64,000 nucleotides of DNA from Sorangium aterium. GTDB taxonomy: Bacteria; Myxococcota_A; Polyangia; Polyangiales; Polyangiaceae. This document shows, piece after piece, positions 40,202 through 57,419 of this stretch. The notes under the pieces are model-generated. The model was not told where the DNA came from and did not search any database. It saw only the letters and a list, made by a program, of their open reading frames with translations. The stretch is taken from assembly GCF_028368935.1 (NCBI RefSeq), contig NZ_JAQNDK010000007.1, forward strand, positions 62,001 to 126,000, read 5' to 3'. Made by a program: the position numbers and the translations under genes. Each line of letters opens with the position of its first letter. Position 1 is the stretch's first letter.

Positions 40202-40552
40202 CGCGGGAAAAGAGGATCGGTGTCTGTCAGAAGACGGGCGGCCGCGGCGTAGGAACGGGGGTGGCCGGAGAGCCACACCTGATCCGCGTCGCAGCGCGCT
40301 CCTGCGCGCCGGTGCCAGCCGCCGTCGCGCGCTGGCGAACGGAGACGCACGCGCGACGGCCGCGCGACCCGCGACCCGCGACCCGCGACGGAGCGCTGGC
40401 CGAAGGGCTTCGTCTGCCCAGCTTCTCATCAACGATCCATGTCCAGAGGAGATCAACACCGTGCTTACTCACGCATTCGACAGATCCATCCGGTACCCTG
40501 CGCCACGCCCCGCCGCCGCGCTCGTCGCGGGCCGCGGGAGGACGGGCGCATC
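40202..40552. other. Gene-free spacer before the M23 gene
   Basis: About 350 bp with no gene. It contains a GCGACCC microsatellite (three units plus five bases, 40364-40389), related to the one at 10031. Confidence 0.5.
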
Positions 40553-43500
40553 ATGAGGAGGCTTTGCAAAGGCGCGCTCCTCGCGGCGCTCGCGCTCGGG
40601 AGCACCATCGCGAGCGCAGGAGACGCGCGGGCTATAGAGGGCGCCACCGCCTTCTGGAGCAACGCCGTCGAGGTCCAGGTGTCGGGCGGCGCCCTCACCC
40701 GCGGTCCGGGCTGGGGCTGGAGCGCCGGCGCCTCGTCGGTCCAGCAGATCGAGGCGGGCGACGGGTTCGTCGAGTTCTCCACGAACGAGGCGAACCGGAC
40801 CAAGATCGCCGGGCTGAGCCACGGCGATGAGAGCCCGTCGTTCTGGGACATCGATTACGGGGTGCTCCTTCGCGCCGACGGGGGCGTGGAGATCCTCGAG
40901 CAGGGGTACGGAAAGGGCTACTTCGGGACCTACCAGGCCGGCGACGTCTTCCGCGTCGAGGTGTTCGAGGGCCAGGTGCGTTATCGCAAGAACGGGGTCG
41001 TATTCTATACGAGCCACACGGGGCCCACCTACCCGCTCGCGCTCGACGCCAGCCTGCACGACGAGGGCGCGACCGTCACCAGCGCCCAGGTCACGAGCTG
41101 CGCGGCCGGCGACGAGAGCTGCATGCCGCCGGGGTTCTGGAAGAACGTCCGCTACGCCCCGGCGAACGGGACCTTGCTGACGCGCAGCCCCGGCTGGGGC
41201 TGGCACGCCGGGGCCTCATCGGTCCAGCAGATCGAGGCCGGCGATGGGTTCGTGGAGTTCTCCACGAACGAGGCGAGCCTCGAGAAGATGGCGGGCCTCG
41301 GCAACGGCGACGTCGATCAGGGCTTCGGGGACATCGACTATGCGGTCTTTCTGCGCGCCGATGGAGGCCTGGAGATCGTCGAGCAGGGGGTTGGGAAAGG
41401 CTACTTCGGGACGTACCAGGCCGGCGACGTCTTCCGCGTGGAGGCGTTCAGCGGCCAGGTGCGTTACCGCAAGAACGGGCTCGTGTTCTACACGAGCGCC
41501 ACGGCGCCCACCTACCCGCTCGGGCTCGACACCAGCCTGAACCACGAGGGCGCGACCATCACCAGCGCCCAGGTCGCGAGCTGCGCGGCCGGGGACACGA
41601 GCTGCATGCCGCCGGGGCTGTGGAGGAACGTCCGCTACGTCACCGCCAACGGAGGCGCGCTGACGCGAAGCGCCGGCTGGGGCTGGCACGCCGGCGCCTC
41701 ATCGGCCGAGCAGATCGAGGCGGGCGACGGGTTCGTGGAGTTCTCCACGAACGAGGCAAACCTCGAGAAGATGGCCGGCCTCAATCACGGCGACGCCGAT
41801 CAGGGCTTCGGGGACATCGATTACGCGATCTACCTGCGCGCCGATGGAGGCCTGGAGATCGTCGAGCAGGGGGTTGGACAGGGGTACTTCGGGATGTACC
41901 AGCCGGGCGACGTCTTCCGCGTCGAGGTGTTCAACGGTCATGTGCGTTACCGGCAGAACGGGATGGTGTTCCACACGAGCAACACGGCGCCCACCTACCC
42001 GCTCGGGCTCGACACCAGCCTGAACCACGAGGGCGCGACCGTCACCGGGGCCCAGATCATGAGCTGCGCGGCCGGGGACGAGGCCTGCATGCCGCCGCAG
42101 GAGTGGAAGAACGTCCGCTACGCCACGGCGAACGGAAGCCTGCTGACCCGCGACGCCGGCTGGGGCTGGCACGCCGGGGCCTCGTCGGCCGAGCAGATCG
42201 AGGCGGGCGGCGGCTACGTCGAGTTCTCCACGAACGAGGCGGACCTCCAGAAGATGGCGGGCCTCGGCCACGGCGACACGGACCAGGGCTTCGGAGACAT
42301 CGATTACGCGATCTACCTGCGCGACGACGGGGGCCTGGAGGTCTACGAGCAGGGCGTTGGACAGGGATACTTCGGGCCCTACGAGGTCGGGGACGTCTTC
42401 CGCGTCGAGGTGTTCAATGGCCAGGTGCGCTACCGCAAGAACGGGATGGTGTTCCACACGAGCACCACGGCGCCCACCTACCCGCTCGGGCTCGACACCA
42501 GCCTGAACCACGAGGGCGCGACCGTCGCCGGCGCCCAGGTCGTGAGCTGCGCGGCCGGGGACACGAGCTGCATGCCCCCCGGGCTATGGCAGAACGTCCG
42601 CTATGCCACCGCCAACGGAGGCGTGCTGACACGAAGCGCCGGCTGGGGCTGGCACGCCGGGGCCTCGTCGGCCGAGCAGATCGAGGCGGGCGACGGCTAC
42701 GTGGAGTTCTCCACGAACGAGGCGAGCCTCCAGAAGATGGCGGGCCTGAGCCACGGCGATGTCGATCAGGGCTTCGGGGACATCGATTACGCGATCTACC
42801 TGCGCGCCGATGGAGGCCTGGAGATCTACGAGCAGGGCGTTGGACAGGGGTACTTCGGGACCTACCAGGCCGGCGACGTCTTCCGTATCGAGGTGTTCAA
42901 TGGCCAGGTGCGGTACCGCAAGAACGGGCTGGCGTTCCATACGAGCCTGACGGCGCCCACCTATCCGCTCAGGCTCGATACCAGCCTGAACGACGGGGGC
43001 GCGACCGTTACCGGTGCCCAGGTCGTGAGCTGCGCGGCCGGGGACACGAGCTGCATGCCGCCGGGGTTCTGGAAGAACGTCCGCCATGCGCCGGCGAGCG
43101 GGGGCTCGCTGACGCGCGCCGCCGGCTGGGGCTGGCATGCCGGGGCCTCGTCGGTCCAGCAGATCGCGTCGGACGATGGCTACGTGGAGTTCTCCACGAA
43201 CGAGACGAACCGGTACAAGATGGCGGGCCTTGGCCACGGCGACGCCGATCAGGGGTACGGAGACATCGATTATGCGATCTACCTGCGCGGCGACGGGGGA
43301 CTGGAGGTCGTGGAGAACGGCTACGGACAGGGCTACTTCGGGACCTACCAGGCGGGCGACGTCTTCCGCGTCGACGTGCAGAGCGGCCAGGTCCGCTACC
43401 TGAAGAACGGGGCCGTGTTCCACACGAGCAGCGCAACGCCCACCTACCCGCTCGAGCTGGACACCAGCCTGTTCGATGAGGGCGCGACCATCACGAACGC

Positions 43501-44356
43501 GTCGATCTCGGGCGCCGGCGGCGGGGGGGACCCGACCACCGGCTGCGGCGAGGTGGGGCCCGGCGACGAGCTCAGCGACACGAAGGTGCCCACGTTCTGC
43601 AATCACCCCACCACGATGCCGAACGGGGACGCGCCGCCCATGGGGCAGTACTTCGGCCATACGTGCACCTCGGTCGTGCTCCAGACCGTCTATTACACGC
43701 ACACGTCCGGCAACCACAGCGGGCTCGACTTCTCCGTCCCGGCGCGCAGCCCCTTGTACTCGGTCGGCTATGGAAAGGTCATGTGCGCCGGGCCAGACGC
43801 CTGCGTGGGCAGGTACCCCACCGCCCGGGGCGCGCCCGCCCAGATCGATCTGACGATCCGCTATGGCTCGGTCTACGTCATCTACGGGCACGCCGCGTCG
43901 ACCCTCGTCGCGGAGGGCGATCTCGTCGTCCCGGGGCAGGAGATCGGCGAGTCGTCGGACTGGCCGAACAACGATCACCTGCACTTCGAGGTCCGCCGCG
44001 TCGCCGACAACAAGGCGCCGAACCCGGTGCCGTTCTTCTCGCCGGACATCCGGGGCTATCTCGAGGGCACCGTCACCGACGCGCACTTCTGCACGGGGCA
44101 CTTCGATGATCAAGCGGACGTGGGGTTCACGTCGACTACCCAGCTCGATGAGCGGCCGTGCACGGACGCGAACGACGGGACGACCGGCCCGATCCGCTGC
44201 CAGGAGGTGTGCGACTACAGCCCTGCGGACTGCGAGGTAAAAACCTACCCCAACGGGCGCAGGGAGGTGCACGAGTACTGCAGCGGTTTCAGCTGCGGCG
44301 GCGGCACCTATGCCTGCGGGCTCCGCCGGAATACGGCCGCCCAGGCGTGCCCGTGA
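40553..44356 (+). CDS. Secreted M23 peptidase with six tandem 161-aa domains
   Basis: A 1267-aa exported protein. Signal peptide (MRRLCKGALLAALALGSTIASAGDA) is followed by six copies of a domain with GWGW(H/S)AGASS, QIEAGDGFVEFSTNEA, DIDYAIYLRADGGLEI and FGTYQAGDVFRVEV, plausibly a SPRY-like or sugar-binding beta sandwich. The C-terminal LytM/M23 domain has GNHSGLDFS (His and Asp zinc ligands) and NNDHLHFEV (HxH), then a Cys-rich end. It is probably a peptidoglycan or protein endopeptidase targeted by the repeats. The ATG at 40553 begins the signal peptide. Confidence 0.88.
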   Translation: MRRLCKGALLAALALGSTIASAGDARAIEGATAFWSNAVEVQVSGGALTRGPGWGWSAGASSVQQIEAGDGFVEFSTNEANRTKIAGLSHGDESPSFWDIDYGVLLRADGGVEILEQGYGKGYFGTYQAGDVFRVEVFEGQVRYRKNGVVFYTSHTGPTYPLALDASLHDEGATVTSAQVTSCAAGDESCMPPGFWKNVRYAPANGTLLTRSPGWGWHAGASSVQQIEAGDGFVEFSTNEASLEKMAGLGNGDVDQGFGDIDYAVFLRADGGLEIVEQGVGKGYFGTYQAGDVFRVEAFSGQVRYRKNGLVFYTSATAPTYPLGLDTSLNHEGATITSAQVASCAAGDTSCMPPGLWRNVRYVTANGGALTRSAGWGWHAGASSAEQIEAGDGFVEFSTNEANLEKMAGLNHGDADQGFGDIDYAIYLRADGGLEIVEQGVGQGYFGMYQPGDVFRVEVFNGHVRYRQNGMVFHTSNTAPTYPLGLDTSLNHEGATVTGAQIMSCAAGDEACMPPQEWKNVRYATANGSLLTRDAGWGWHAGASSAEQIEAGGGYVEFSTNEADLQKMAGLGHGDTDQGFGDIDYAIYLRDDGGLEVYEQGVGQGYFGPYEVGDVFRVEVFNGQVRYRKNGMVFHTSTTAPTYPLGLDTSLNHEGATVAGAQVVSCAAGDTSCMPPGLWQNVRYATANGGVLTRSAGWGWHAGASSAEQIEAGDGYVEFSTNEASLQKMAGLSHGDVDQGFGDIDYAIYLRADGGLEIYEQGVGQGYFGTYQAGDVFRIEVFNGQVRYRKNGLAFHTSLTAPTYPLRLDTSLNDGGATVTGAQVVSCAAGDTSCMPPGFWKNVRHAPASGGSLTRAAGWGWHAGASSVQQIASDDGYVEFSTNETNRYKMAGLGHGDADQGYGDIDYAIYLRGDGGLEVVENGYGQGYFGTYQAGDVFRVDVQSGQVRYLKNGAVFHTSSATPTYPLELDTSLFDEGATITNASISGAGGGGDPTTGCGEVGPGDELSDTKVPTFCNHPTTMPNGDAPPMGQYFGHTCTSVVLQTVYYTHTSGNHSGLDFSVPARSPLYSVGYGKVMCAGPDACVGRYPTARGAPAQIDLTIRYGSVYVIYGHAASTLVAEGDLVVPGQEIGESSDWPNNDHLHFEVRRVADNKAPNPVPFFSPDIRGYLEGTVTDAHFCTGHFDDQADVGFTSTTQLDERPCTDANDGTTGPIRCQEVCDYSPADCEVKTYPNGRREVHEYCSGFSCGGGTYACGLRRNTAAQACP
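40652..43549 (+). repeat. Six 483-bp coding repeats with exact period
   Basis: Unit starts fall at 40652, 41135, 41618, 42101, 42584 and 43067. The marker CTGGGGCTGG recurs at 40711, 41194, 41677, 42160, 42643 and 43126, exactly 483 bp apart each time, so no unit has gained or lost a codon overall. Units 2-5 are the most alike. Confidence 0.95.
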
Positions 44357-44537
44357 CGCCCGCGCCGTGACGCCGCCCATCATCGGCGTGCGCCGTTGAG
44401 CCGAGCTCGCCGGCGCCGCCGCCGCGCCTGACATCGACATCCATCCCCGCCATGGCGCCGCCACCCCTGAGGTGGAGCTCTCCTCGGATTCTCCCGTCGT
44501 TTCGCGTCGGCATGGGGTGTGCTCGAGGCCGAGCGTC

Positions 44538-44645
44538 ATGCCGACGCTCGAGCACAACGCCCTCGTCGAGATGTTCCGCGAGGACCTCTCCGGCGACGAG
44601 GCGTCAGCGGCAGAAATGTCTATTGTTTCAATGGGTTCCGACTGA
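44538..44645 (+). pseudogene. Truncated 5' end of a chromosomal gene at the island border
   Basis: The frame from ATG 44538 reads MPTLEHNALVEMFRED, which resembles the conserved N-terminus of a family common in Sorangium-type genomes (MPxLEHEALVELFRNRP...). After about 15 residues similarity ends, and a stop comes at 44645. The break coincides with the edge of the integrase-bearing region, suggesting that an inserted element cut the gene. Confidence 0.45.
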
Positions 44646-46303
44646 CGCTCGGCCGAGTCGTCATCCGGCGTGGCCCAACGCGGGCCCAACGAACCGCCTG
44701 TGAAGGCGCCAGCGTCCGCCGTGGCGGGGGCGGGGACGTCGCCCGGGGGCGCCGTCTGACCGGGCGGCGCGCCGGAGGCGGAAGCTTCGGCGCTCGCCGA
44801 GCCCGTGTCTGCTCCAGCGGACGCGGGTTGGCCTCCCCCTACCGAGCCGCCCTTTCCTCTCAGCTCGGGGATGGCCTCATCCAGAGGGGCAAAGTCGCCC
44901 AGTCCAAGCTCGGCGATCTTGCGCGCGGCGCGCTTGTAGTGGTGGATCTGGCCGCTCGACTTGTGTCCGGTTCGGTCGGAGATCCACGTCTCCGTGCGAC
45001 CATTCGCGAGCTTGATGGTAATGAAGGTCGCTCGAGTGTCGTGCAATCGGATGTTCAGTCTCGACTCCGTGGTCTCGAACAGCTCGGGTCGATCGACTCC
45101 CGCGCGTTGGAGGTGATCTCTGAAGCGTTCCGCCCCGTGACAACCCGGCAAGGGGTCCCCCTTTGGCCCGACGAAGACACGCCGATTGTCCGGCCAGAGC
45201 TCGCGATAAGCGCGAAGCGCGCGCACCACATCAGGCGATAGTGCCCAGGCGCGGGGGTCATCGGTCTTGTTCTCATCGAGAACAACGGCTCCCCGGTCAA
45301 GGTCGACGTCCGACCATTCGAGAGTTCCGGCCTCGTCGGCTCGCATGCCCTCGCGCGTGAGGAAGCCATAGTAGACCCGGAAGCACAGCGGGACCATCTG
45401 ACTCCTCATGAGGCGTTGATCCTCGTCAGGGTACAAGTAGCCCTTTGCCTTATTATTTTCTATCTTCGGAATCCACCCGCGCGGCAGCGGGTTGTGCGCA
45501 ATGATGCGCGCCGGATAGGCAGCCAGTGACAATAGCCGATGGATGACGATCGCAATATTCCGGCGCGATCCGGGCTCCAGGTGCGCCGGCAGCCGTGACA
45601 TCGCGTGGTCGGCATGGTCGAGTGTGAAGCGCACGAGGGGAACGGGGCCTAGCACGTCGAGCACGTGACCCAGCCTCTGCTCATATTTATCGGCTGTCCG
45701 AATCGCCTTCACATGGTCCGGATACTGATCGGCAAGCTTTCCAGAAAGAACCCGCTCAGCGAACTCGGCGAAGGTGGTTTCCCCGGAGGCACGGGCGCGC
45801 GCTTCGCCCCTGCACAGGTGGTTGATCGCGAGCCGGACGTCACGGAGCGCGCTGCCCTCGCGCGCGGCAGCCTGCTCCAGCAGCGGCAGGCCGAGCACGA
45901 TCTGTCCGGCAGCGAGCAGGTGCCTGCTGAGATCGGCCAACACTTCCAGCCGCGCGTTGGCGTCGTGCTCGGTCCGGCACGTCGGCAGGCTGAACGTGCG
46001 TCGCCCCGCCTCGCCGAGGCTCAGACGCGCGGTCCACGTGTTCCTGCGCAACCGGACTGACCCGGAGCCGTTGGCGCGCTTGTCGCCTGCCGCTGATGGC
46101 GCGGTGCCCTGCGGGCGCTCTGGAGAGCTCGACGCTCCCGGTAAGCTCGCACCGGGCGCAGCTCCCGCCTCCGGCGGCGAGGGGCGCCCGCCAGGGCGGC
46201 TCGCCCGTGCGCGGCGCTCGGTCGATCCGGCTGAAGGAACGGACGAAGTAGCGACTGCCGGCGAGCGCTTGGCGCGCGCCCGCCGCTGCGGTACGTCGGT
46301 CAT
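44600..46303 (-). CDS. Tyrosine recombinase (site-specific integrase), no own stop codon
   Basis: The catalytic region is clear. An Arg in the GMRADEAGTLEW segment is followed by RLHDTRATFITIKLANG, the HxxR box. Next come DRTGHKSSGQIHHYKR with the second His and the nucleophilic Tyr. The N-terminal part has an arm-type region and a core-binding domain. Start ATG 46303 (MTDVPQ) has GGAG eight bases upstream. The frame has no stop at the element edge: it runs on antisense through the truncated gene and M23 gene to 42584. The 3' limit given is the approximate edge of recognisable sequence. Confidence 0.8.
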
Positions 46304-46374
46304 GGGTCGGTCTCCGGGAAAGCGGGGGTCGATCAAGGGCCCGTCCGGCGTTGGTAGCGCCGAGCGGGCCCGCT

Positions 46375-46902
46375 CTACTTCAGCGCCAGCCTAGCACGCC
46401 TCGCATCTGCGTGACGGGAGCTCGCTCGGCCGGTAGGCGGCTGCGGAACAGGTTCGAGCCCGGCAGAGGCCAGCACGGCGGCAACCCGAGTGTTCTCATC
46501 GGCCTCGGCGGTGCGACGCGACGCCGGCTTACTGGCCAGCGCCGTCAGGTACGCAACGAACGACTCGCGCTGGACCAAGCGCAACTTGCCGAGTTTGGTG
46601 ATCAGCAGGGGAAAGCCCGGCGCGCGGATCGTGTCGAGGAAGACGCGCGCCGGGATGCCGGTGACCGCCTCGACGTTCTTCTGCGAGAGCATCTCCGGCT
46701 GCGGCACCGTGATCGTGAGCCCGTCCAGCGGGATCGTGAGCGTCGCGGTTGCCGTCGCCATCGCTGGCTGGTCGCTCACCTTCGGGCTGGACCATCCGCC
46801 GGCGGGAGTCTCCAGGCTCTTTCTGTCGATGGCGCGCGTGCCGTTACCAGCCTGACGAAGAGCAAGCGGTGCCGATACACGCGCGAGAGCCGCTCGTGTC
46901 AT
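46375..46902 (-). CDS. Excisionase-like DNA-binding protein
   Basis: A 175-aa protein. Its centre (LSQKNVEAVTGIPARVFLDTIRAPGFPLLITKLGKLRLVQRESFVAYL) fits a MerR/excisionase-type winged helix with the usual Tyr/Phe-containing wing. It sits 71 bp upstream of the integrase on the same strand, the normal place for a directionality factor. The ATG at 46902 has GGAGG six bases upstream. The frame is open further back to 47325 but lacks coding character. Confidence 0.7.
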   Translation of the reverse strand: MTRAALARVSAPLALRQAGNGTRAIDRKSLETPAGGWSSPKVSDQPAMATATATLTIPLDGLTITVPQPEMLSQKNVEAVTGIPARVFLDTIRAPGFPLLITKLGKLRLVQRESFVAYLTALASKPASRRTAEADENTRVAAVLASAGLEPVPQPPTGRASSRHADARRARLALK

Positions 46903-47422
46903 GCCATACCTCCATCTGTGTTGGGTTCGTGCGCGACCGAGACCGCCGCTTCTGGAAGGAGCACGAAACGGTAATTCCGTGTCACCGGTAATTCGACACG
47001 AGTTGCTTGGAGACCTGCCTGGGGAAAACACCCTGTCGCATCGCGGGGTTGGGTGTTCTGGAAAGCCCTGCCGAGGGGCCGAAATGGGGGGTGCGAAGGA
47101 CTCGATTTGGTAATTCGCGCGCTCTGGCGACGCCGCGCGTGGAGGCGACGTAGAGCCACCCATCGGGCCTTGTCCACCCCGGGCGAGCGCGACGCCGTCG
47201 CAGAGATCGAGGCGGACGTCGGCGAACGTTGCGCCGTCGGCCTCGTCCATCGGGCCGAGCGCGGCGCCGTACCGGCGCCGTGGCAGCACTCCTTGACGCA
47301 CCTGGAGCTGCACGACGTCGCCCATGCGCCAGCGTCGCCTGCTCCCTGAATTGGGATCGGCGAGCGGGCGCGGTAGGCACGCACGGGAGAGGTACGCGGC
47401 GAAAGTCCAACGCGACGCCGTT
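46903..47422. other. Promoter-like spacer with GGTAATT motifs
   Basis: No firm gene. GGTAATTC occurs twice near 46970-46992 around a CGTGTCACC centre and again at 47109. A leftward ORF from 47325 (MGDVVQLQVRQGVLPRR) might encode a small protein but decays into this region. Confidence 0.4.
47103..47115 (+). repeat. CGATTTGGTAATT motif, copy 1
   Basis: An exact 13-bp match, in opposite orientation, lies at 48461-48473. The pair brackets the 161-aa hypothetical gene. It could be an operator or partition-type site of the element. Confidence 0.5.
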
Positions 47423-47908
47423 TCATGTGCTCGACTCGCGCGCTTCCCGCCGGGCAGCGCTGCACCGCAGACCAGCATGCCGATCGCTCGGACGTGGGCT
47501 TGAGACCGCGGGCGTCCCGCGCTCCGCCGCCTCCCACGCGGCTCGCAGGCTGCTTTCAAGTTTTCCTCCCCCCTCCATCGGCGGTCCCATTCGCTTCAGC
47601 GCCTCCAGGCGCACAGCCTCCAGCCTCGACCGGCGCGGCGCCGTCGCCCGGCGCTTCTCCACGAGCTCACCGAGCACCTGCGCCGCGCGCTCCCACTGCT
47701 CCGCCGCCCCCGGCGCGTGCGCGATCCTTCGCACGGCGTTCCAGGGCGCTTCAAGCTGATCACACAGGTTGCCGATCTCGGGGTGCAGCCGTGCGATCGC
47801 GCGCAGGTGGCACCGGGTCTGCTTGTTCATCTGGAAACACTCTTCCAGGACGTGGCTCGGCGCGCGGACCACTCCGCACGCGAGCTCGTACCAGCGCCGC
47901 GAGCTCAT
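47423..47908 (-). CDS. Hypothetical island protein, 161 aa
   Basis: I do not recognise the family. The sequence MSSRRWYELACGVVRAPSHV then NKQTRCHLRAIARLHPEIGNLCDQL and EQWERAAQVLGELVEKRR is predicted helical. Third codon positions are strongly G/C, as expected of a real gene in this genome. The last ~50 residues are low complexity. It lies between the integrase module and the defence operon, with an AT-rich upstream patch (about 47955-47990) that may be its promoter. Confidence 0.5.
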   Translation of the reverse strand: MSSRRWYELACGVVRAPSHVLEECFQMNKQTRCHLRAIARLHPEIGNLCDQLEAPWNAVRRIAHAPGAAEQWERAAQVLGELVEKRRATAPRRSRLEAVRLEALKRMGPPMEGGGKLESSLRAAWEAAERGTPAVSSPRPSDRHAGLRCSAARREARESST

Positions 47909-48662
47909 GCGTCTACAAAAGCACCGAACCAGAAACCTGCCAGAGCGAAGCCTTCATTTTCCGTTCAACTTTAAAGAGCGTTAAAGCACAGTACAAGAGT
48001 CGGCTCCTGGCGAGGGCGACGGCATTAAAGTCTTATGTAGCGTGCGACCAAGAGGACGCCGGTTCTCACGTGGCACCGTGACCTGACTGGCGTTCGCAGG
48101 GGCCCGAACACGTGACCTCGGTGTGCGGGGTGACCCCTCCCGGCGATCCCACGGCCCGGCCGTCGAGCGGGGCCAGCTCGCTCGGCGTCGCGGCCGCGAG
48201 CCGCGCCGGCGTCCACCTGGGCGAGCTCCGCCTTGCGCCAGCCTCCCGCCTGGACGAGCTCCGCGGCCCCTTGCGCCGAGTTCGCGCCCCGCGGCATGCT
48301 CGGCTCCATGCCCAGGCCGCCCCGGCGTCCGCCTGGACGAGCTTGCGCCGCGCCCTTCGGGCCGCCCCGCGGTCGTGCCCGCCGCGCGCCGCCCTTGCAT
48401 ACGTATGCGACAAAACGGAGGTCGGCGGCTCGCCGGAGCCCCTCAGCCGACTCCGCGCAAAATTACCAAATCGGACCCCCTTCGCGCCCCCCAAATCGGC
48501 CCCTCGGCAGCTCCCCCGAAGCGGTCTAACTGCGCGTCACCAGAGCGGTTTCCACACCTGACCAGATCCCGGTAACTCGCGACGAGATACCGGGTCGTCA
48601 GAATTACCATTTCGAGCCTCCTCACGGGCTCTCGTTCAGGCTCTGGTCGGCCGGACGATTCG
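47909..48662. other. Plasmid-like region without a firm gene
   Basis: Competing ORFs on both strands are Arg/Ala-rich and none has domain content. An AT-rich patch lies at 47945-48045. AATTACCAAATCG at 48461-48473 and GAATTACCATTTCGAG near 48600 are inverted forms of the GGTAATT motif seen at 46970-47115. Confidence 0.4.
48461..48473 (-). repeat. CGATTTGGTAATT motif, copy 2
   Basis: Reverse-complement copy of 47103-47115. Context on both sides (GCGC two bases after the motif) is also partly shared. Confidence 0.5.
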
Positions 48663-49151
48663 GTGCCGCTTCCGGCGGTGCCCTCGACGCCCACGTATGA
48701 GGCAGCGCCGGCGACCCCTCCCCGACCTGAAGCTGCCCCGGCTACGCCTCCGGCGAGCAACCCGCGCCAGGTGCTCGTCGCGCCCCCCACGCATACCATC
48801 GCCGCCACCCATGCGGCGGGCGACCTCGCGACCGCGCAGATCGCTGCGTGCACTGTCTCGGAGCTCCTCAGCGCCACGCAGGTGCCCGCACTCGTCGCGC
48901 CCGTTGTAGACCTCGCTAGTCTCGACTCGGGCACTTTTTGTTCGGGCACTTTTTGTCGGCCGGGCGTTGCGGAACAGCCTGGATCTGAAGGCCCTGCGCA
49001 CTTTCACGCGGGTCGCCGGAGACGCCGCGGCCCCCCGAAACCCTGCGGATGCATGGGAAGCCCTGCAAAACAAGGGCGGGCGCGATGCACGAAAAGTGCC
49101 CAAGTCGAGACTAGGGCGCCGGCGCCGACACGAGACGCATCGGCCTCGTGA
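48663..49151 (+). CDS. Possible small island protein (weak)
   Basis: A 162-aa frame whose middle part, ATHAAGDLATAQIAACTVSELL, then VPALVAPVVDLASLDS, reads like a short helical protein. After about residue 90 it runs through the inverted repeats and becomes low complexity. It may be a shorter, frame-broken gene or not a gene at all. No family is recognised. Confidence 0.25.
   Translation: MPLPAVPSTPTYEAAPATPPRPEAAPATPPASNPRQVLVAPPTHTIAATHAAGDLATAQIAACTVSELLSATQVPALVAPVVDLASLDSGTFCSGTFCRPGVAEQPGSEGPAHFHAGRRRRRGPPKPCGCMGSPAKQGRARCTKSAQVETRAPAPTRDASAS
48917..49114. repeat. Long inverted repeat with GGGCACTTTTTGT iterons
   Basis: A 28-bp arm at 48917-48944 (CTAGTCTCGACTCGGGCACT...) is matched by its complement at 49087-49114 with only a few mismatches. 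The 15-mer TCGGGCACTTTTTGT is repeated in tandem at 48928-48942 and 48943-48957. The arrangement looks like an operator or plasmid-type iteron site. Confidence 0.8.
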
Positions 49152-49314: not shown

Positions 49315-49551
49315 GTGACCCACCGCCTTCTCAAGCACAAGCCCGGCCCCCTTGCCGGGGAGACCGGCCCCTCCGCCACCCTGGACGGGGCGGTCTTCCT
49401 CGCCGAGGCGCAGAGGGTGTGCGCCGCACTCGCGGAGGATCTGCGTGTGCGCACGGACGGCTCCCCGGGCGTCACGCGACGCCTGTGGGTACGCTCGAAC
49501 GACGAGGCGGGGCGGAGGACGAAGGCAGCGGAGAGCGAGGGGGAGGCGTAG
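49315..49551 (+). CDS. Small first ORF of the nucleosidase-ATPase-HNH operon
   Basis: A 78-aa frame from GTG 49315: VTHRLLKHKPGPLAGETGPS, then DGAVFLAEAQRVCAALAEDLR, ending Lys/Glu-rich. It stops three bases before the ATG of the next gene, so translation is probably coupled. No family is recognised. It could be a regulatory or inhibitory subunit, or a leader peptide. Confidence 0.5.
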   Translation: MTHRLLKHKPGPLAGETGPSATLDGAVFLAEAQRVCAALAEDLRVRTDGSPGVTRRLWVRSNDEAGRRTKAAESEGEA

Positions 49552-49554
49552 AGG

Positions 49555-52500
49555 ATGGTGAGGTTCGATGTTCTAGTGTGCACGGCGGCACTCGACGAAC
49601 TGGAGGCGGTCCTCCGGGTGTTCGACGAGCCCCCGGAGACCTGGGAGGAGGCGCGGCTCCCGAACGGTTTTCGCTACCACCACTGCGCGATGAGGCGCCC
49701 CGCTGGAGAGCCGGTGCGGGTCGCCGCCGCGTGGGTTGGCTCCGACGGCGCCCAGCAATCCTCGGCCCGCTTGCAAGTTCTGATCGAGCACACGAGGCCG
49801 CGCGCGCTGGCGATCTGCGGGATCTGCGCCGGTCACCGCGGCGCCGTCGCGCTCGGCGATGTCATCGTGGCCGATCGTGTTTACCGCTACGACCCCAGCG
49901 CCCCAGACGAGGGCCACTCGCTGGATTCGTACGCACTGCCTGCCAATTGGGCGATGGACGCGCGGTATGTCGCCCGCCGGTTCGACGCCGAGGGCCGGTG
50001 GTCGCGGCGCCGGCCTCAAACCCAGGCGAGCCAGCGTAGATGGCTCGCGCGCGCTCTCCACGCACACGAGAGCGAAGGCGGTCCGGCCCCGGCGGCCCAT
50101 CCCGACCGCAAGCTCTCGTGCCCCGACTGGCTGGAGGTCATCCGGTGGCTGGAGCAGAACGGTGACATCGAGAAGCACGCCGGAGCGCTGGCGCTCACCG
50201 ACCGCGGCCGGGCCACTCTGCTCGAGGAGCAGACGCTCTACCCGGACGGCCACCCCGGCGAGCCACCCCTGCGCGTGCATTTCGGCGTGCTGGCGACAGT
50301 CTCTTCGTACCGCGCCGGCTCTGACATCTTCGACCGCCTGCGCGCCATCGATCGCAAGACGCTCGGTCTCGACGTGGAAGCCGCCGCATTCTGTGATGTG
50401 GCCCATCGGCTCGACGTGCCCATCATGGTGGCGAAGGCCGTCGGCGACTTCGCCGACTTCAAGAGCGAACCGAGGTTCCACTCCTTCGCCGCGGCTGTAT
50501 CAGCAGAGTTCGCGCTTGATTACATGCTCCAGGCTCCTTTGCCCGAGGCCGCACAACCGAAGCCGACGACAGTCTCCGACCCACTCGCCGACGTATGGTC
50601 GCACCTCGATGGACGCTCGCGGAATGTTCTGGCAGCGCTCGCGGCGAGCGCGGGGGCAACCACGATCAGCACCGTTGCGTGGATCGCGCGCCTCGACGAG
50701 AGCGTTGCTGAAAGCGTCGTGCTCACAGCTGCCACCAAGATTGCGCAGGTACAGCTGGCACCCACGAACGCACGCTCCGTGCGCTTACTCGATCCCTGGC
50801 GAGATTTCGTGCGTCGCCAGCCAGAGGGACAGCAGGCGCTGAAGCAACACGCGGAGTATGTCGAGGCAGCGCTGCAAAAGTACGCTGACCCGATCCAGTG
50901 GCGTGAGCTGGAGCAGGACGTACCGGAGGTGCTGGCTGCCGTCGACAACGCAAGGGCCGCAGGTGATAATTGGGGGGCCTACCGGCTGTTCATGAGGGTC
51001 TTCGATCATCAGTATCGGCGCGGCCGGTACAGGGACACCGTGGACGGCATCACGCAGTTGCTCGCGCACCTCCCGCCCGAGAGCGAGGAGGCTATCGAGG
51101 CGCAGAACGGCATCTCGCGCGGGCTCCTCGTGCTCGGCGAAGCGGAGAACGCCGGCGCCGCGTCCCGTCGCGCCTTAGCGCTCGCCGTAGCGCGAGGCAA
51201 CCGAAACCTCCAGAGTCAGTCGCTGTTGTACCTCGCTCGCTACCACTACGCTTGCGGCGAGTTCGATGTCGCCGCCAGGTACCACGAGGAAGGGCTCAAG
51301 CTCGTGGAAGAGCCACATGGCACATGGCTACGCGCCAAGCACCTCGGCGAGCTGGCGATGTGCGAGCTACGGCGAGACGACATTTCTGGCGCACGGGAGC
51401 GCGTCGAGCGCGCGCTCGATGATGTGCAACTTCGCGCTCCCGATGATCTCCCCGGGCGCGCGTCGCTCCTCGCCAACCTCGGTATGTGCTTGCTCAAGAC
51501 CGGGAATCCCTCCGGCGCTCTCGAGCGACTGCAAGATGCGCTGAGCCTCGAGGAGCGCCTCGGGCGCATCGCCGGGCAGGCCGCGGTGCTGCGCGCGATG
51601 GGGAGCTGCGATGTCCCCTTCGACCAGACCCAGCGTGGTATCGAGCGCATCGAGCGTGCCCTGGTCCTTCACGAGCAGATTGGGGCCCTCCCGGCCCAGG
51701 TTCTAGACTTGATGCAACTCGGCGAGTGTCATGCAGCACTCGACGACATGCGACAGGCCTGCGACTCCTGGCAGCGCTCGATCGACTGTGCGCGCCGCAT
51801 TTCGCTCCCCGACGCGCACCCCGATGTCCTCGCTGTGACGAGCATGCTCACGGGCACGGGTACGTACGTCACGCGCGCAACGATCCAGGGCGTGCGCTCG
51901 ATCGATGCGCTCACGTGGGAGATTCCCGTTACCGCAGGCCCGGGCTGGCATGTGCTGATCGGCGACAACGGCGCTGGCAAAAGCTCGTTCCTGCGATCCC
52001 TCGCCCTCGCCCTGGTGAGCGAGACCGAGGCCCACGCCCTTCGCCAAGACTGGAATGAGTGGCTTTGTCGAGGCAGCGCCGAGGGCTCGGTGTACATCGC
52101 CCTGTCCCGGAACTTTCCAGATCCCGGCCGCGCCTCTGTCACCTTCGACGTCGCCCTCAAGCTTTCTCGCCACGCCGACCAGGTCAAGCTGGAGGATACC
52201 TCCCCCAACGATCTCGGTCGCCGCCTCCGCGACGGCACCTCCCCCGGCCTGTTCAGCGCCGCCTACGGCCCCTTCCGCCGTTTCTCCGGCGGCGATTCCG
52301 ATTACGAGAAGCTCTTCGCCTCGCTCCCCCGCCTGGCTCGCCACCTCTCACTCTTCGACGAGCGCCCCGCGCTCACCGAAAGCATCGCCTGGCTCAAGCT
52401 GCTCGACCACAAACAGCTTGAGAAGAACCCCGAGGGGGACATCCTCGATTCTCTCAAGGCCTTCATCAACCAGCCCGACTTCCTCCCCCACGGCACCAAG

Positions 52501-53121
52501 CTTACCAAGGTCTCGTCCACCGCGGTCACCTTTACCGACGGCAATGGCTATACGGTCGGCATCGAACAGCTCAGCGATGGGCACCGCTCGATCCTGAGCC
52601 TGACGCTGGAGCTGCTGCGACAGCTCACGGTGACCTACGGCGCCCAGCAGATCTTCTATCCCGGCGATCCGACGAGGGTGCGCGCGCCCGGCGTCGTGCT
52701 CATCGACGAGGTGGACGTGCACCTGCACCCGACCTGGCAACGCGCGGTCGGAATCTGGTTCACGAAGCACTTCCCGAGGATCCAGTTCATCGTCACGAGC
52801 CACAGCCCGCTCGTGTGTCAAGCTGCCGAGGTAGGGACGGTGTTCCTCCTTCCGAAGCCGGGCACCACCGGCGGCCGGATGCTCCAGGGAACCGAGCTTG
52901 ATCGGCTGCGCTACGGCAATGTGCTCGACGCCTACGGCACGGGCGTCTTCGGGCAGGGCGTGACACGCTCCGACAGCGCCAAGCAGATGCTCGAACGACT
53001 CGCCGAGCTGAACGACGCCGAGTTGGAGCGCGACCTTACGGCCGAGGAGTTCGACGAGCAGGCGCGCCTGCGCGCGACGTTCCCAACCACCGCGCACGTC
53101 CGCTCCAGGGGGGAGCGTTAA
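49555..53121 (+). CDS. Nucleosidase-TPR-ATPase fusion, PtuA-like defence ATPase
   Basis: A 1188-aa protein with three parts. Residues 1-325 resemble the PNP/MTA-SAH nucleosidase superfamily: ALAICGICAGHRGAVALGDV, VIVADRVYRYD and LDVEAAAFCDVAHRLDVPIM, ending AKAVGDFADF. A winged-helix-like insert (about 190-230, DWLEVIRWLEQNGDIEKHAG, LTDRGRATL) interrupts it. Residues ~330-780 are helical TPR-type repeats. Residues ~785-1160 are an SMC/OLD-like ATPase with Walker A IGDNGAGKSS, signature LSDGHRSIL, Walker B VVLIDEVDVHLHP, and the TSHSPLV switch. The HNH gene starts 4 bp later. ATPase plus HNH is the Septu/retron-associated PtuAB pairing; the fused nucleosidase and TPR regions are unusual. Confidence 0.85.
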   Translation: MVRFDVLVCTAALDELEAVLRVFDEPPETWEEARLPNGFRYHHCAMRRPAGEPVRVAAAWVGSDGAQQSSARLQVLIEHTRPRALAICGICAGHRGAVALGDVIVADRVYRYDPSAPDEGHSLDSYALPANWAMDARYVARRFDAEGRWSRRRPQTQASQRRWLARALHAHESEGGPAPAAHPDRKLSCPDWLEVIRWLEQNGDIEKHAGALALTDRGRATLLEEQTLYPDGHPGEPPLRVHFGVLATVSSYRAGSDIFDRLRAIDRKTLGLDVEAAAFCDVAHRLDVPIMVAKAVGDFADFKSEPRFHSFAAAVSAEFALDYMLQAPLPEAAQPKPTTVSDPLADVWSHLDGRSRNVLAALAASAGATTISTVAWIARLDESVAESVVLTAATKIAQVQLAPTNARSVRLLDPWRDFVRRQPEGQQALKQHAEYVEAALQKYADPIQWRELEQDVPEVLAAVDNARAAGDNWGAYRLFMRVFDHQYRRGRYRDTVDGITQLLAHLPPESEEAIEAQNGISRGLLVLGEAENAGAASRRALALAVARGNRNLQSQSLLYLARYHYACGEFDVAARYHEEGLKLVEEPHGTWLRAKHLGELAMCELRRDDISGARERVERALDDVQLRAPDDLPGRASLLANLGMCLLKTGNPSGALERLQDALSLEERLGRIAGQAAVLRAMGSCDVPFDQTQRGIERIERALVLHEQIGALPAQVLDLMQLGECHAALDDMRQACDSWQRSIDCARRISLPDAHPDVLAVTSMLTGTGTYVTRATIQGVRSIDALTWEIPVTAGPGWHVLIGDNGAGKSSFLRSLALALVSETEAHALRQDWNEWLCRGSAEGSVYIALSRNFPDPGRASVTFDVALKLSRHADQVKLEDTSPNDLGRRLRDGTSPGLFSAAYGPFRRFSGGDSDYEKLFASLPRLARHLSLFDERPALTESIAWLKLLDHKQLEKNPEGDILDSLKAFINQPDFLPHGTKLTKVSSTAVTFTDGNGYTVGIEQLSDGHRSILSLTLELLRQLTVTYGAQQIFYPGDPTRVRAPGVVLIDEVDVHLHPTWQRAVGIWFTKHFPRIQFIVTSHSPLVCQAAEVGTVFLLPKPGTTGGRMLQGTELDRLRYGNVLDAYGTGVFGQGVTRSDSAKQMLERLAELNDAELERDLTAEEFDEQARLRATFPTTAHVRSRGER

Positions 53122-53125
53122 GGCG

Positions 53126-53935
53126 ATGCTCCACGTCCCGCCCGTGACCCTGCCCACTACCCCTGCAGCCGCGCTACTGAGCCTGCAAGCGGATATCGAC
53201 GCACTGCCGACCTTCGCCGAACGCGTGGCGGCCGCCAAGACCCGCTTCTCCTCGAAGAACAGGAAGGGCGACACTACCTTCGACGCGATCAAGGAGGTGC
53301 TGACCGCGATGTGCGCCGGCCGCTGCCGCTGTATGTACTGCGAGGACTCTGCCGCTGACGAGGTGGAGCACTTCCGCCCGAAGGATCTCTACCCGGAGGT
53401 CGTCTTCGCCTGGATCAACTATCTCTACGCCTGCGGCCCCTGCAACGGACCGAAGAACAACAGGTTCCAGGTGCTCTCCGCGAAGTCCAGGACCATCGTT
53501 GACGTGACCCGTCCCCTCAAGGCGCCCGTGACTGAGCCCGAGCCGGGCGATCCGGTGCTGATCGATCCTCGCCGCGAGGATCCGCTCACGCTCATGCGCC
53601 TCGACATCCGCGGGACCTTCCTCTTCCGCCCCATCCCCTCGAAGGGAACGCACGAGTATGAGCGCGCGAACTACACCATCAACATCCTCCACCTGAACGA
53701 GCGCGACCACCTCCCTGGCGCCCGCAAGGACGCCTACGAGGCCTACTGCGCGCTGCTCCACCGCTACGTGCTGAAGAAGAAGGCATCCGCCTCTGCCGAG
53801 TACCTCGCCCGTACGGAGAGCGCGCTCCGGCGGACGCACCACCCGACGGTATGGGCCGAGATGAAGCGGCAGCGGGACGAGATCCCGGAGCTGCGGGCGC
53901 TGTTTAGGGAGGCGCCGGAGGCGATGCAGTGGTGA
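53126..53935 (+). CDS. HNH endonuclease, PtuB-like
   Basis: A 269-aa nuclease. The metal and active-site block reads CRCMYCEDSAADEVEHFRPK, then FAWINYLYACGPCNGPKNN: a CxxC/CxxC zinc knuckle with the H-N catalytic residues of the TIGR02646-like HNH family used by PtuB. The C-terminal half is helical and basic. It starts 4 bp after the ATPase stop with a GGGGGAG site upstream, so the two are made together. By analogy with Septu, the ATPase would hold the nuclease in check until infection is sensed. Confidence 0.87.
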   Translation: MLHVPPVTLPTTPAAALLSLQADIDALPTFAERVAAAKTRFSSKNRKGDTTFDAIKEVLTAMCAGRCRCMYCEDSAADEVEHFRPKDLYPEVVFAWINYLYACGPCNGPKNNRFQVLSAKSRTIVDVTRPLKAPVTEPEPGDPVLIDPRREDPLTLMRLDIRGTFLFRPIPSKGTHEYERANYTINILHLNERDHLPGARKDAYEAYCALLHRYVLKKKASASAEYLARTESALRRTHHPTVWAEMKRQRDEIPELRALFREAPEAMQW

Positions 53936-54307
53936 GGACCTCGACGGATCCATGGGCGTGCGGCCTGCCCGAGCGCGAAGGAAGTCCAATGCTTCGGCGA
54001 CGTCAATCCCCAGCTGCGGAATTTGTCCTGGATTGACAGAACATTCGTCTATGCGACCCGACCCTCCTGAAAGAGACAGCGCTATAACATCGTCGGGCGG
54101 TCCGTTCCGTCCTGTCGGCCAAGTCCGACAAGTTCGCGGGATCCGAGGTGTTCGCCCGATTCGTGGTCTTAGACATGGTGGGCCAGTGCTTCCTGCGACA
54201 AGTTTGAGGTGGTCGGCACTAACTCGCGAAGAGTTCTTTGCGCCGTGAGTGCAAGGCCGAACAGCGAGTCAGGTAAGGGGCGAGCATGGTCACGAGCGCG
54301 ACGACCC
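53936..54307. other. Gene-free spacer after the defence operon
   Basis: About 370 bp of intermediate GC with no ORF I can support. It marks the shift from GC-rich defence genes to the low-GC gene that follows. Confidence 0.5.
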
Positions 54308-55060
54308 ATGACGGAGCTTGACTGCACCAGCATCGACACGGCTTTGCCTTCGGTTGCTGGCCTCATGCGAATGTCCACTATGACATTGGCTCAGAAACTT
54401 CTCTCGTACTCTCCACGAGAGTACGAGGACGACTGCAATAGTTCAGACAGCGATTCGCTTGACGTTCTTTGGTGGCGAATCTTCCGATGCCTCCAGAAGC
54501 CCGTTCCCGAGTCCATCATGTGGTTTCATGCGACCCGTGTCCGTCCCGGAACGTCATTCGCCGACGGCATCCGCCCGCTAAACGAGCGTCTTGGCGACCT
54601 GGAAGAAATTGTGAAACAATGTGCCAAAGATCTCGGGCTCAATATTGGCGGTCACGCACCAGATGAGTATTGGACTCATTCGGGAGGTATTCAATTTTCC
54701 TTAAAGACATCCGACCGTATGCACTGGGGACCGTACGCCTTTCTCATGCGGGAGGTGATACTGCCTGGGACTAGCGATGTGCATGATTATCTAAGTGCAC
54801 CGGAGATCGTTGAGGATATCGCTCGGCGTGACTACGGCCCAAGCTGGCAGAAGGTGCTCGATAGATTTCGCAGCATGACCGTCCCCTGTATCGTCCATTT
54901 TCGTGACTGGAAGCGTCGCGATGATGCTGCAGCTTTCGCTCTGCGATACTGCCATAAGCGAATCCACGAACGAGATAACGATGCCATTTTGCATACGTGC
55001 TACGACGCCGCGGGAGTTCCAGTTTCGCCAAGTGCTATCGTTCGTGTCGAGTACTTGTGA
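54308..55060 (+). CDS. Low-GC hypothetical protein, probably acquired
   Basis: About 250 aa, with starts possible at 54308 (MTELDC) or 54365 (MRMSTMTLAQ). The most protein-like part reads WFHATRVRPGTSFADGIRPL, then HWGPYAFLMREVILPG, VHDYLSAPEIVEDIARRDYG and MTVPCIVHFRDW. I do not recognise the family; the WFHATR...GI start vaguely recalls ADP-ribosyltransferase-type openings but catalytic residues are not evident. Base use is far from the local norm: 25 of 60 bases are G or C at 54661-54720. Its place beside the defence operon suggests cargo of the island. Confidence 0.65.
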   Translation: MTELDCTSIDTALPSVAGLMRMSTMTLAQKLLSYSPREYEDDCNSSDSDSLDVLWWRIFRCLQKPVPESIMWFHATRVRPGTSFADGIRPLNERLGDLEEIVKQCAKDLGLNIGGHAPDEYWTHSGGIQFSLKTSDRMHWGPYAFLMREVILPGTSDVHDYLSAPEIVEDIARRDYGPSWQKVLDRFRSMTVPCIVHFRDWKRRDDAAAFALRYCHKRIHERDNDAILHTCYDAAGVPVSPSAIVRVEYL

Positions 55061-55066
55061 GAAGAA

Positions 55067-55273
55067 CTAGTGCTCTGACACGATTCTGTTGAACCAGTCG
55101 GATCCGAAAATCCGCTCGGCGTCGCGGACGGTGAAGGTCCAGTCGATCTTGCGACGAGCCTGGTCCGCGGCTGTATTCCACTGCCGGACGCGGCTGCGTA
55201 GCTCGGTGTCGGTGATCATCGCGTCCCGCGTCCGACCGGTGAAGATCGCGGCCCCATGATCGGCAGCGTTCAC
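55067..55273 (-). pseudogene. C-terminal fragment of a transposase
   Basis: 68 codons ending TDTELRSRVRQWNTAADQAR, then KIDWTFTVRDAERIFGSDWF. The I-D-W-x-F-T-x-x-D/Q-A-R ending is typical of the C-terminus of IS630/ISAzo13-type transposases. There is no catalytic domain upstream, so it is a truncated remnant. Confidence 0.45.
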
Positions 55274-55931: not shown

Positions 55932-57419
55932 GTGATCGCGAAAGAGAAGGAGGCCGAGGTTCTGCGCCTCTACCGCGGCGAGAAGTGGCCCGTGGGCACC
56001 ATTGCCGCCCAGCTCGGGCTGCACCACACCACCGTGCAGCGCGTGCTCGGGCAAGCGGGCGTCGATCCGAAGGTCGTCCCGCCGCGCCCGTCGATGGTCG
56101 ACCCGTTCGTGCCTTTCATCGTCGAGCAGCTCGGCAAGTATCCCTCGCTGCGCTCCAGTCGCCTCTTCGGCATGCTCAAGGAGCGGGGCTATCCGGGCGG
56201 TCCCGATCATCTGCGCCGGGTGATCGGCCGTCTTCGCCCCAAGAAGCCCGCAGAGGCATTCCAGCGGCTGCGCACGCTGCCCGGCGAGCAAGCGCAGGTC
56301 GACTGGGCGCACTTCGGCAAGCTGGCCGTCGGCCGGGCGCTGCGCCCGCTCTGGGCCTTCGTCATGGTGCTCAGCTACTCGCGGCGGATCTTCCTGCGCT
56401 TCTTCCCGAGCGCGGCGATGCCCTTCTTCGTGCGCGGGCACGTCGAGGCGTTCGCCGACATCGACGGTGTCCCGCGCGTGCTGCTCTACGACAACCTCAA
56501 GAGCGCTGTCGTGGAGCGTCACGGCGACGCGATCCGGTTCCACCCCATGCTCCTGGCTCTGTCGGCGCATTACCGCTTCGAGCCGCGCCCTGTCGCCGTC
56601 GCCCGCGGCAACGAGAAGGGCCGTGTCGAGCGCGCCATCCGCTACGTCCGCGAGGCGTTCTTCGAGGCCCGGACCTACGCCGATCTCGACGACCTCAACC
56701 GACAAGCGACCGAGTGGACCAGCTCCGCAGCGCTCGATCGCTCCTGGGTCGAGGACCGCGCCCGCACCGTGCGTCAGGCCTTCGACGACGAGCGCAGTGT
56801 GCTGCTCGGGCCCCCCGACACGCCGTTTCCAGCCCACGAGCGCGTCGAGGTCCAGGTCGGAAAGACCCCCTACGCGCGTTTCGATCTCAACGACTACTCG
56901 GTTCCCCACGACCGGACGAGCCGCACGCTGGTCGTCCTCGCCGACCTCGCGCAGCTGCGCATCGCCGACGGCAACGAGATTGTCGCGACCCATGTCCGCT
57001 CGTGGGACCGCGGCCAGCAGATCGAGCAGCCCGTGCACATCGAGCGCCTGGTCGACGAGAAGCGCCGCGCCCGCGAGCATCGCGGCCTCGATCGCCTCGC
57101 CCGCGCCGCCCGCAGCAGCCAGGCATTCCTGCGCATCCTCGCCGAGCGCGGAGACAACGTCGGCAGCGCCATCGCCCGGCTTCTACACCTGCTCGACGCC
57201 GTCGGCGCCGCCGAGCTCGAAGAGGCGCTCGTCGAGGTGATCGAGCGCGACACCATCCACGTTGGCGCCGTGCGCCAGGTGATCGACCGCCGCCGCTCCG
57301 AGCGCCACCTGCCGCCTCCGGTCTCGATCCCCGTCACGCGCGGCCAGCACGCCGCCCTCGTCGTCACGCCGCATTCGCTCGCCACTTACGAGGCCCTGAA
57401 GAAAGACCCGACGCCATGA
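55932..57419 (+). CDS. istA: IS21-family transposase IstA
   Basis: A 495-aa DDE transposase. It has an N-terminal helix-turn-helix ([23 protein letters not shown]). The catalytic Asp lies in AQVDWAHFG, the second in [11 protein letters not shown], and the Glu in [11 protein letters not shown]. Start is GTG 55932, and it overlaps istB by 4 bp (ATGA), the normal istAB layout. It appears intact. Confidence 0.92.

Follow-up and report, generated by a model that had tools for sequence, protein, structure and literature searches.

An in-frame fusion of a nucleosidase and a TPR arm to the PtuA ATPase of a type I Septu operon in Sorangium aterium

Introduction

How does the ATPase of a two-gene Septu operon come to carry, in a single reading frame, what look like the effector and the sensor of another kind of immune protein, and what might such a chain do? 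The question is raised by a locus of the soil myxobacterium Sorangium aterium, which we analyzed within a stretch of 64,000 nucleotides (the window: assembly GCF_028368935.1, contig NZ_JAQNDK010000007.1, positions 62,001-126,000 of the forward strand; coordinates given without a region label are those of the window). Here a gene for a nucleosidase (PNP), a TPR region and the ATPase PtuA is followed by the gene of the HNH nuclease PtuB. The operon is real, and its architecture is that of a three-part fusion plus PtuB. Our reading of it is tentative: it may be an abortive defence built on an in-frame fusion of ptuA with the effector and sensor parts of a STAND-like protein, with the nucleosidase draining (d)ATP and PtuA setting PtuB free. 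We regard this as possible, if somewhat short of probable.

Results

The fusion gene (49555..53121, + strand) encodes 1188 amino acids, and a Shine-Dalgarno-like GGGGGAGG stands upstream of its ATG. A codon-position GC bias of the coding type is unbroken from end to end, with a GC content at third codon positions (GC3) of 0.72-0.88. After a gap of 4 bp follows ptuB (53126..53935, + strand; 269 amino acids), whose ATG is preceded by a Shine-Dalgarno-like GGGGGAG. A preliminary description of the sequence had seen an operon of three open reading frames (ORFs) with gaps of 3 and 4 bp; the spacings, the 1188-residue ORF and the HNH ORF stand, and what has to be given up is the first, 78-residue ORF as a gene. 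This ORF (49315..49551, + strand) ends 3 bp ahead of the fusion and shares its frame, being parted from it by a TAG and a single AGG codon. Because it has a GTG start, no visible Shine-Dalgarno sequence upstream, no family match in profile searches and no convincing homologue (none above chance in 30 relatives), we leave it out of the operon. Its GC3 of 0.90 is the sole point in favour of coding and leaves a small doubt; it is probably not a gene but leader or non-coding DNA. That one genome alone has the fusion could suggest that two genes were joined by an assembly or sequencing error. We consider this highly improbable: the 3.6-kb frame is uninterrupted, its codon bias is uniform, the domain boundaries are clean, and the contig that contains the window is a large one in an assembly of 7.

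The C-terminal part of the fusion (residues 771-1183; 51865..53103, + strand) is a complete PtuA, an ABC-type ATPase. The PADLOC profile PtuA1 (PDLC00269) matches it with E 1.7e-138 over positions 2-436 of 446, and Walker A (803-811), signature (1006-1010), Walker B (1047-1054) and H-loop (H1083) are all present. Its start matches that of stand-alone PtuA, Y771 being aligned to residue 2 of the proteins of a Methylobacterium and of a Hymenobacter plasmid. The HNH protein is matched by PADLOC PtuB1 (PDLC00340; E 2.2e-108, positions 1-268 of 268), and its residues H82 and N98 and its cysteine pairs 69/72 and 103/106 align with solved PtuB chains. Both profile matches are full-length and bear out the earlier view of a Septu-like ATPase with a PtuB-like HNH partner; the closest relatives of the two proteins are stand-alone forms at 53-59% identity. 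A TOPRIM domain, a trait of OLD nucleases, found no match in the fusion, where the PtuA profile spans the C-terminus. We assign the pair to type I rather than to retron Septu because the retron PtuA and PtuB equivalog models (NF041760/NF041761) scored far under their cut-offs, no reverse transcriptase domain was found in the flanking ORFs scanned and no Rfam family was found in 44-56 kb of the window. To judge from the sequence, the core is that of an ordinary type I Septu, and what is new is the PNP-TPR half ahead of it. What had been proposed as a new defence system is instead type I Septu at its core, extended at the N-terminus by a module of STAND origin. In Septu EcB88 both Walker A/B and HNH are needed and PtuAB cleaves tRNA-Tyr (PMC13096335); the PtuA:PtuB complex is 6:2 (PMC12948488).

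The N-terminal third (residues 3-325; 49561..50529, + strand) holds an MTAN-like nucleosidase domain (PNP_UDP_1, PF01048; E 4e-12, 46 bits at a cutoff of 25), which is also matched by the profiles PDC-M60C (E 1.8e-22) and PN-superfamily effector (E 1.4e-23). An AlphaFold model of this domain, with a predicted local distance difference test (pLDDT) value of 86, matches 5'-methylthioadenosine/S-adenosylhomocysteine (MTA/SAH) nucleosidases at template-modelling (TM) scores of 0.7-0.8 on target length and E ~1e-14, so that the domain both scores and folds as a nucleosidase. The alignment shows the catalytic residues E15, E275 and D298 to be conserved in the family and intact in the fusion; E275 aligns with the MEG/MEA glutamate and D298 with the SD aspartate of the MTA/SAH nucleosidases. 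The domain had first been called nucleoside-phosphorylase-like; the fold is upheld by PF01048 and the model, and the predicted enzyme resembles the hydrolytic nucleosidases and the ATP-nucleosidases of defence, not the phosphorylases. Two potential catalytic arms, nucleosidase and HNH, are thus present with intact motifs, as had been described. Alignment and secondary structure further reveal a mostly helical insert (about residues 145-240; 49987..50274, + strand) that the fusion has in common with PNPs linked to NLR, EAD1 and Cap15 and that, in contrast, two Detocs-like PNPs do not have; it could mark a functional subclass of PNP domains.

The domain falls in a clade of defence-effector nucleosidases found in CBASS, Detocs-like and NLR-like proteins, and its relatives occur in four settings. 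A receiver and a PNP are combined in an operon of a Klebsiella plasmid (PDC-M60A/B/C), presumably Detocs, with which its domain content agrees; in a CBASS operon of a Mesorhizobium ciceri plasmid a Cap15 cyclic-dinucleotide receptor domain is fused to PNP (L022:6545-7984); a PNP-EAD1 protein adjoins a GTPase-associated system; and giant proteins of the same genome and genus, of the PNP-WD40 and PNP-AAA-TPR types, begin with a PNP domain. In two of the giant proteins (PNP domains at L031:10104-11114 and L032:9591-10601) the equivalents of E275 and/or D298 are missing, and these may be pseudo-enzymes. Since such homologues may only bind, it is conceivable that the PNP domain of the fusion is a signal generator or a ligand sensor which gates PtuAB by base release or nucleotide binding and has no part in ATP depletion. 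This seems quite unlikely to us: the triad of the fusion is intact, and the relatives with measured activity, PNP effectors of the CBASS, Detocs and NLR type, degrade (d)ATP according to Table 1 of PMC10952713 (citing Rousset 2023).

Between nucleosidase and PtuA lies a linker or helical region followed by a TPR superhelix (residues 338-766; 50566..51852, + strand). The whole of it is collinear with the C-terminus of a STAND protein, namely residues 1316-1741 of a 1749-residue metallophosphatase-NB-ARC-TPR protein (L034; 31% identity, E 1e-44), and this alignment ends four residues ahead of the start of PtuA. The repeats, at about 450-765, match TPR_12 (E 6.5e-13), and the structure model has TPR hairpins at about 456-765, most of that span having pLDDT about 75-97, in keeping with the TPR middle region noted at the outset. 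Residues 338-430 are not confidently folded in the model (pLDDT mostly <60); reading a winged helix-turn-helix into about this stretch would be a suggestion only, with no confident structure behind it. A STAND NTPase (NB-ARC or NACHT) was not found between effector and repeats, the PNP domain ending at about 325 and the TPR arm starting at about 338. The middle third is, by its homology, a predicted STAND sensor arm.

On its left the operon adjoins a recurrent 4.2-kb element with a tyrosine recombinase (44441..48645, - strand; ORF 44877-46336, PF00589). Copies, at L169:2137-6115 and L168:1848-6059, are found in the genome of the window (86%) and in genome G004 (95%), and the right edge is always that at 48645. 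The right-hand neighbour is an IS21-like transposase gene (55932..57419, + strand), with repeated DNA from near 55207. The operon, first placed in a mobile island beside an integrase, does adjoin the integrase element, but sits outside it, between the edge at 48645 and the start of the IS21-like element near 55207. The neighbouring ORFs are integrase, transposases or frames without matches. Other immune-type genes appear to use this kind of site between mobile elements as well, and joint mobility of operon and integrase is putative.

Around the other copy of the integrase element in this genome we noted a TIR-TPR gene next to the element (L169:6695-9091) and, adjoining that gene, a 2268-residue RHS/SpvB/FG-GAP protein with a C-terminal WHH (HNH-type) nuclease (L169:10594-17397). 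A 279-bp block (48641-48919), which overlaps the element edge by 5 bp, recurs at 82-84% without the integrase element (L172:10396-10674, L173:10329-10607 and L174:9369-9647) and is possibly a target or attachment (att) region, and a repeat of about 140 bp at the left edge (44447-44586) has more than 15 copies across the genus, mostly 80-93% identical. Downstream of ptuB a 283-residue ORF (54209-55060) has a lower GC3 (0.57) and is matched by neither Pfam nor PADLOC. To the left of the element, 40439-44356 encode a 1305-residue protein with several GWGWHAGASS...VEFSTNE repeat units and a C-terminal M23 peptidase.

Discussion

With type I Septu the locus has in common a complete PtuA ATPase and an HNH PtuB, their gene order and all motifs; it differs by the 770 extra N-terminal residues on its PtuA. 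PtuA and PtuB are also related to those of retron type I-A (Ec78/Ec83), whose structures are solved, whereas no reverse transcriptase or msr was found near the fusion. Detocs DtcC and the Cap17-type effectors of CBASS, PNP ATP nucleosidases both, carry a homologous PNP domain with the same E/E/D residues, but there it sits on receiver or cyclic-dinucleotide (CD)-binding domains, while here it sits on TPR and PtuA and kinase or cyclase genes are missing; the fusion has no receiver domain, and no DtcA/DtcB-like genes were found among the neighbouring ORFs. STAND/NLR-like PNP-NTPase-TPR or PNP-WD40 proteins of the same genus have an N-terminal PNP that is 40-44% identical, and the TPR arm resembles the STAND C-terminus. 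Effector and repeat sensor are thus both present in the fusion; unlike these proteins, it is devoid of the STAND NTPase and carries at its other end the ABC ATPase PtuA, with the HNH partner in trans. Table 1 of PMC10952713 lists PNP effectors for CBASS, Detocs, pAgo, DRT8 and NLR-like systems, and Septu is not among its entries. The genome of the window also encodes a 1885-residue protein (L025:3819-9473, G000:C3:about 1340818-1346475) that starts with a PNP domain, continues with a WD40 array and ends in a TIR-like domain (E 4e-64 to the ThsB1 profile); because it pairs PNP with TIR, it is a precedent in the same genome for two catalytic arms on one chain.

If the fusion does serve an abortive defence, its action might proceed as follows, where we infer ATP as the substrate, sensing by the TPR arm, coupling through an oligomer, a switch by ATP release and the defence phenotype itself. 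At rest PtuA would hold ATP and the PtuAB assembly would be inactive; Li et al. reportedly found in 2024 that PtuAB is inhibited by ATP, which binds to PtuA. Upon infection the TPR arm would bind a phage product or a host component altered by the phage. PtuA, hexameric in known Septu, would act as the oligomerising core in place of the STAND NTPase, and the oligomer would cluster the nucleosidase domains and so switch them on to cleave (d)ATP into adenine and ribose triphosphate. The drop in ATP would starve the phage and lift the ATP block on PtuA, whereupon PtuB could cut DNA or tRNA, bringing growth of the infected cell to a halt. In its fullest form this would make the chain a self-licensing dual-effector hybrid of NLR and Septu, an ATP-destroying domain tethered to the ATP-inhibited activator of a nuclease, so that one sensing event drains ATP and thereby fires the nuclease, with PtuA as the oligomerising core in lieu of the STAND NTPase. 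We hold this fullest form to be unlikely.

Several points weigh against an abortive defence of this kind. An action of the PNP domain during infection is putative, a valine (V274) stands beside E275 where methionine is usual, and PNP domains with the extra helical insert, at least some of them, may use another substrate. Moreover, the window's genome alone has PNP-TPR-PtuA: no second fusion was found in about 1,700 genomes searched in partly overlapping sets (97 order-level relatives, 379 of the phylum, 386 Cyanobacteriota-centred, 392 Planctomycetota-centred, 396 Actinomycetota-centred and 12 close relatives), where the large searches scored no more than the few best candidates of each genome, so that a divergent fusion could be missed, and none of the best 80 PtuA matches in 84,980 species genomes is fused. 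Given this single genome, the fusion may be recent, untested or non-functional.

Inspection of about 90 close relatives of PtuA revealed no N-terminal PNP-TPR half, no fusion was found in phages searched with the PNP segment or in viral contigs searched with the fusion and PNP, and a literature search returned no paper on PtuA with a nucleosidase or with TPR. A survey for the same domain order, as the preliminary description had suggested, thus gave no identical fusion and no known Septu subtype fused in the same way. Seven apparent long N-terminal extensions of PtuA (69-379 residues) among the best 80 matches look like non-coding open frames before a normal Met start, and in a Corallococcus (L119), where the match starts at query residue 723 and an in-frame stop precedes it, the upstream gene is that of an unrelated hydrolase. 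A quick tree places the PtuA part within stand-alone myxobacterial PtuAs, with 88% in the Shimodaira-Hasegawa-like approximate likelihood ratio test (SH-aLRT), which is under the starred level. From this placement and the lack of a second example we take the fusion to be derived and, in the genomes searched, unique; because it is a singleton in the collections searched, 'system' is too strong a word for it.

A singleton is also compatible with the main rival explanation. An ordinary Septu operon could have come to lie downstream of a PNP-TPR gene, decaying or unrelated, and in frame with it, with PtuA and PtuB alone at work and the N-terminal half passive or removed, either through an internal start at M762 or by proteolysis. 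The likeness of both proteins to stand-alone forms would fit this, and so would the position of the internal ATG, nine codons ahead of the PtuA start. However, that ATG is without an evident Shine-Dalgarno sequence, and the N-terminal half has its PNP active site and TPR helices intact and coding bias throughout, with no decay visible. We find this explanation somewhat doubtful, and the abortive defence with two effector arms continues to be our tentative reading.

If that reading is true, an NLR effector-sensor module fused to PtuA would link two immune families. The fusion suggests that a PtuA-type ABC ATPase can substitute for a STAND NTPase, and it bears on two questions about Septu: what its trigger may be, and whether falling ATP could be the signal that releases PtuAB. 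Its combination of parts suggests a defence that would drain ATP and cut nucleic acid together.
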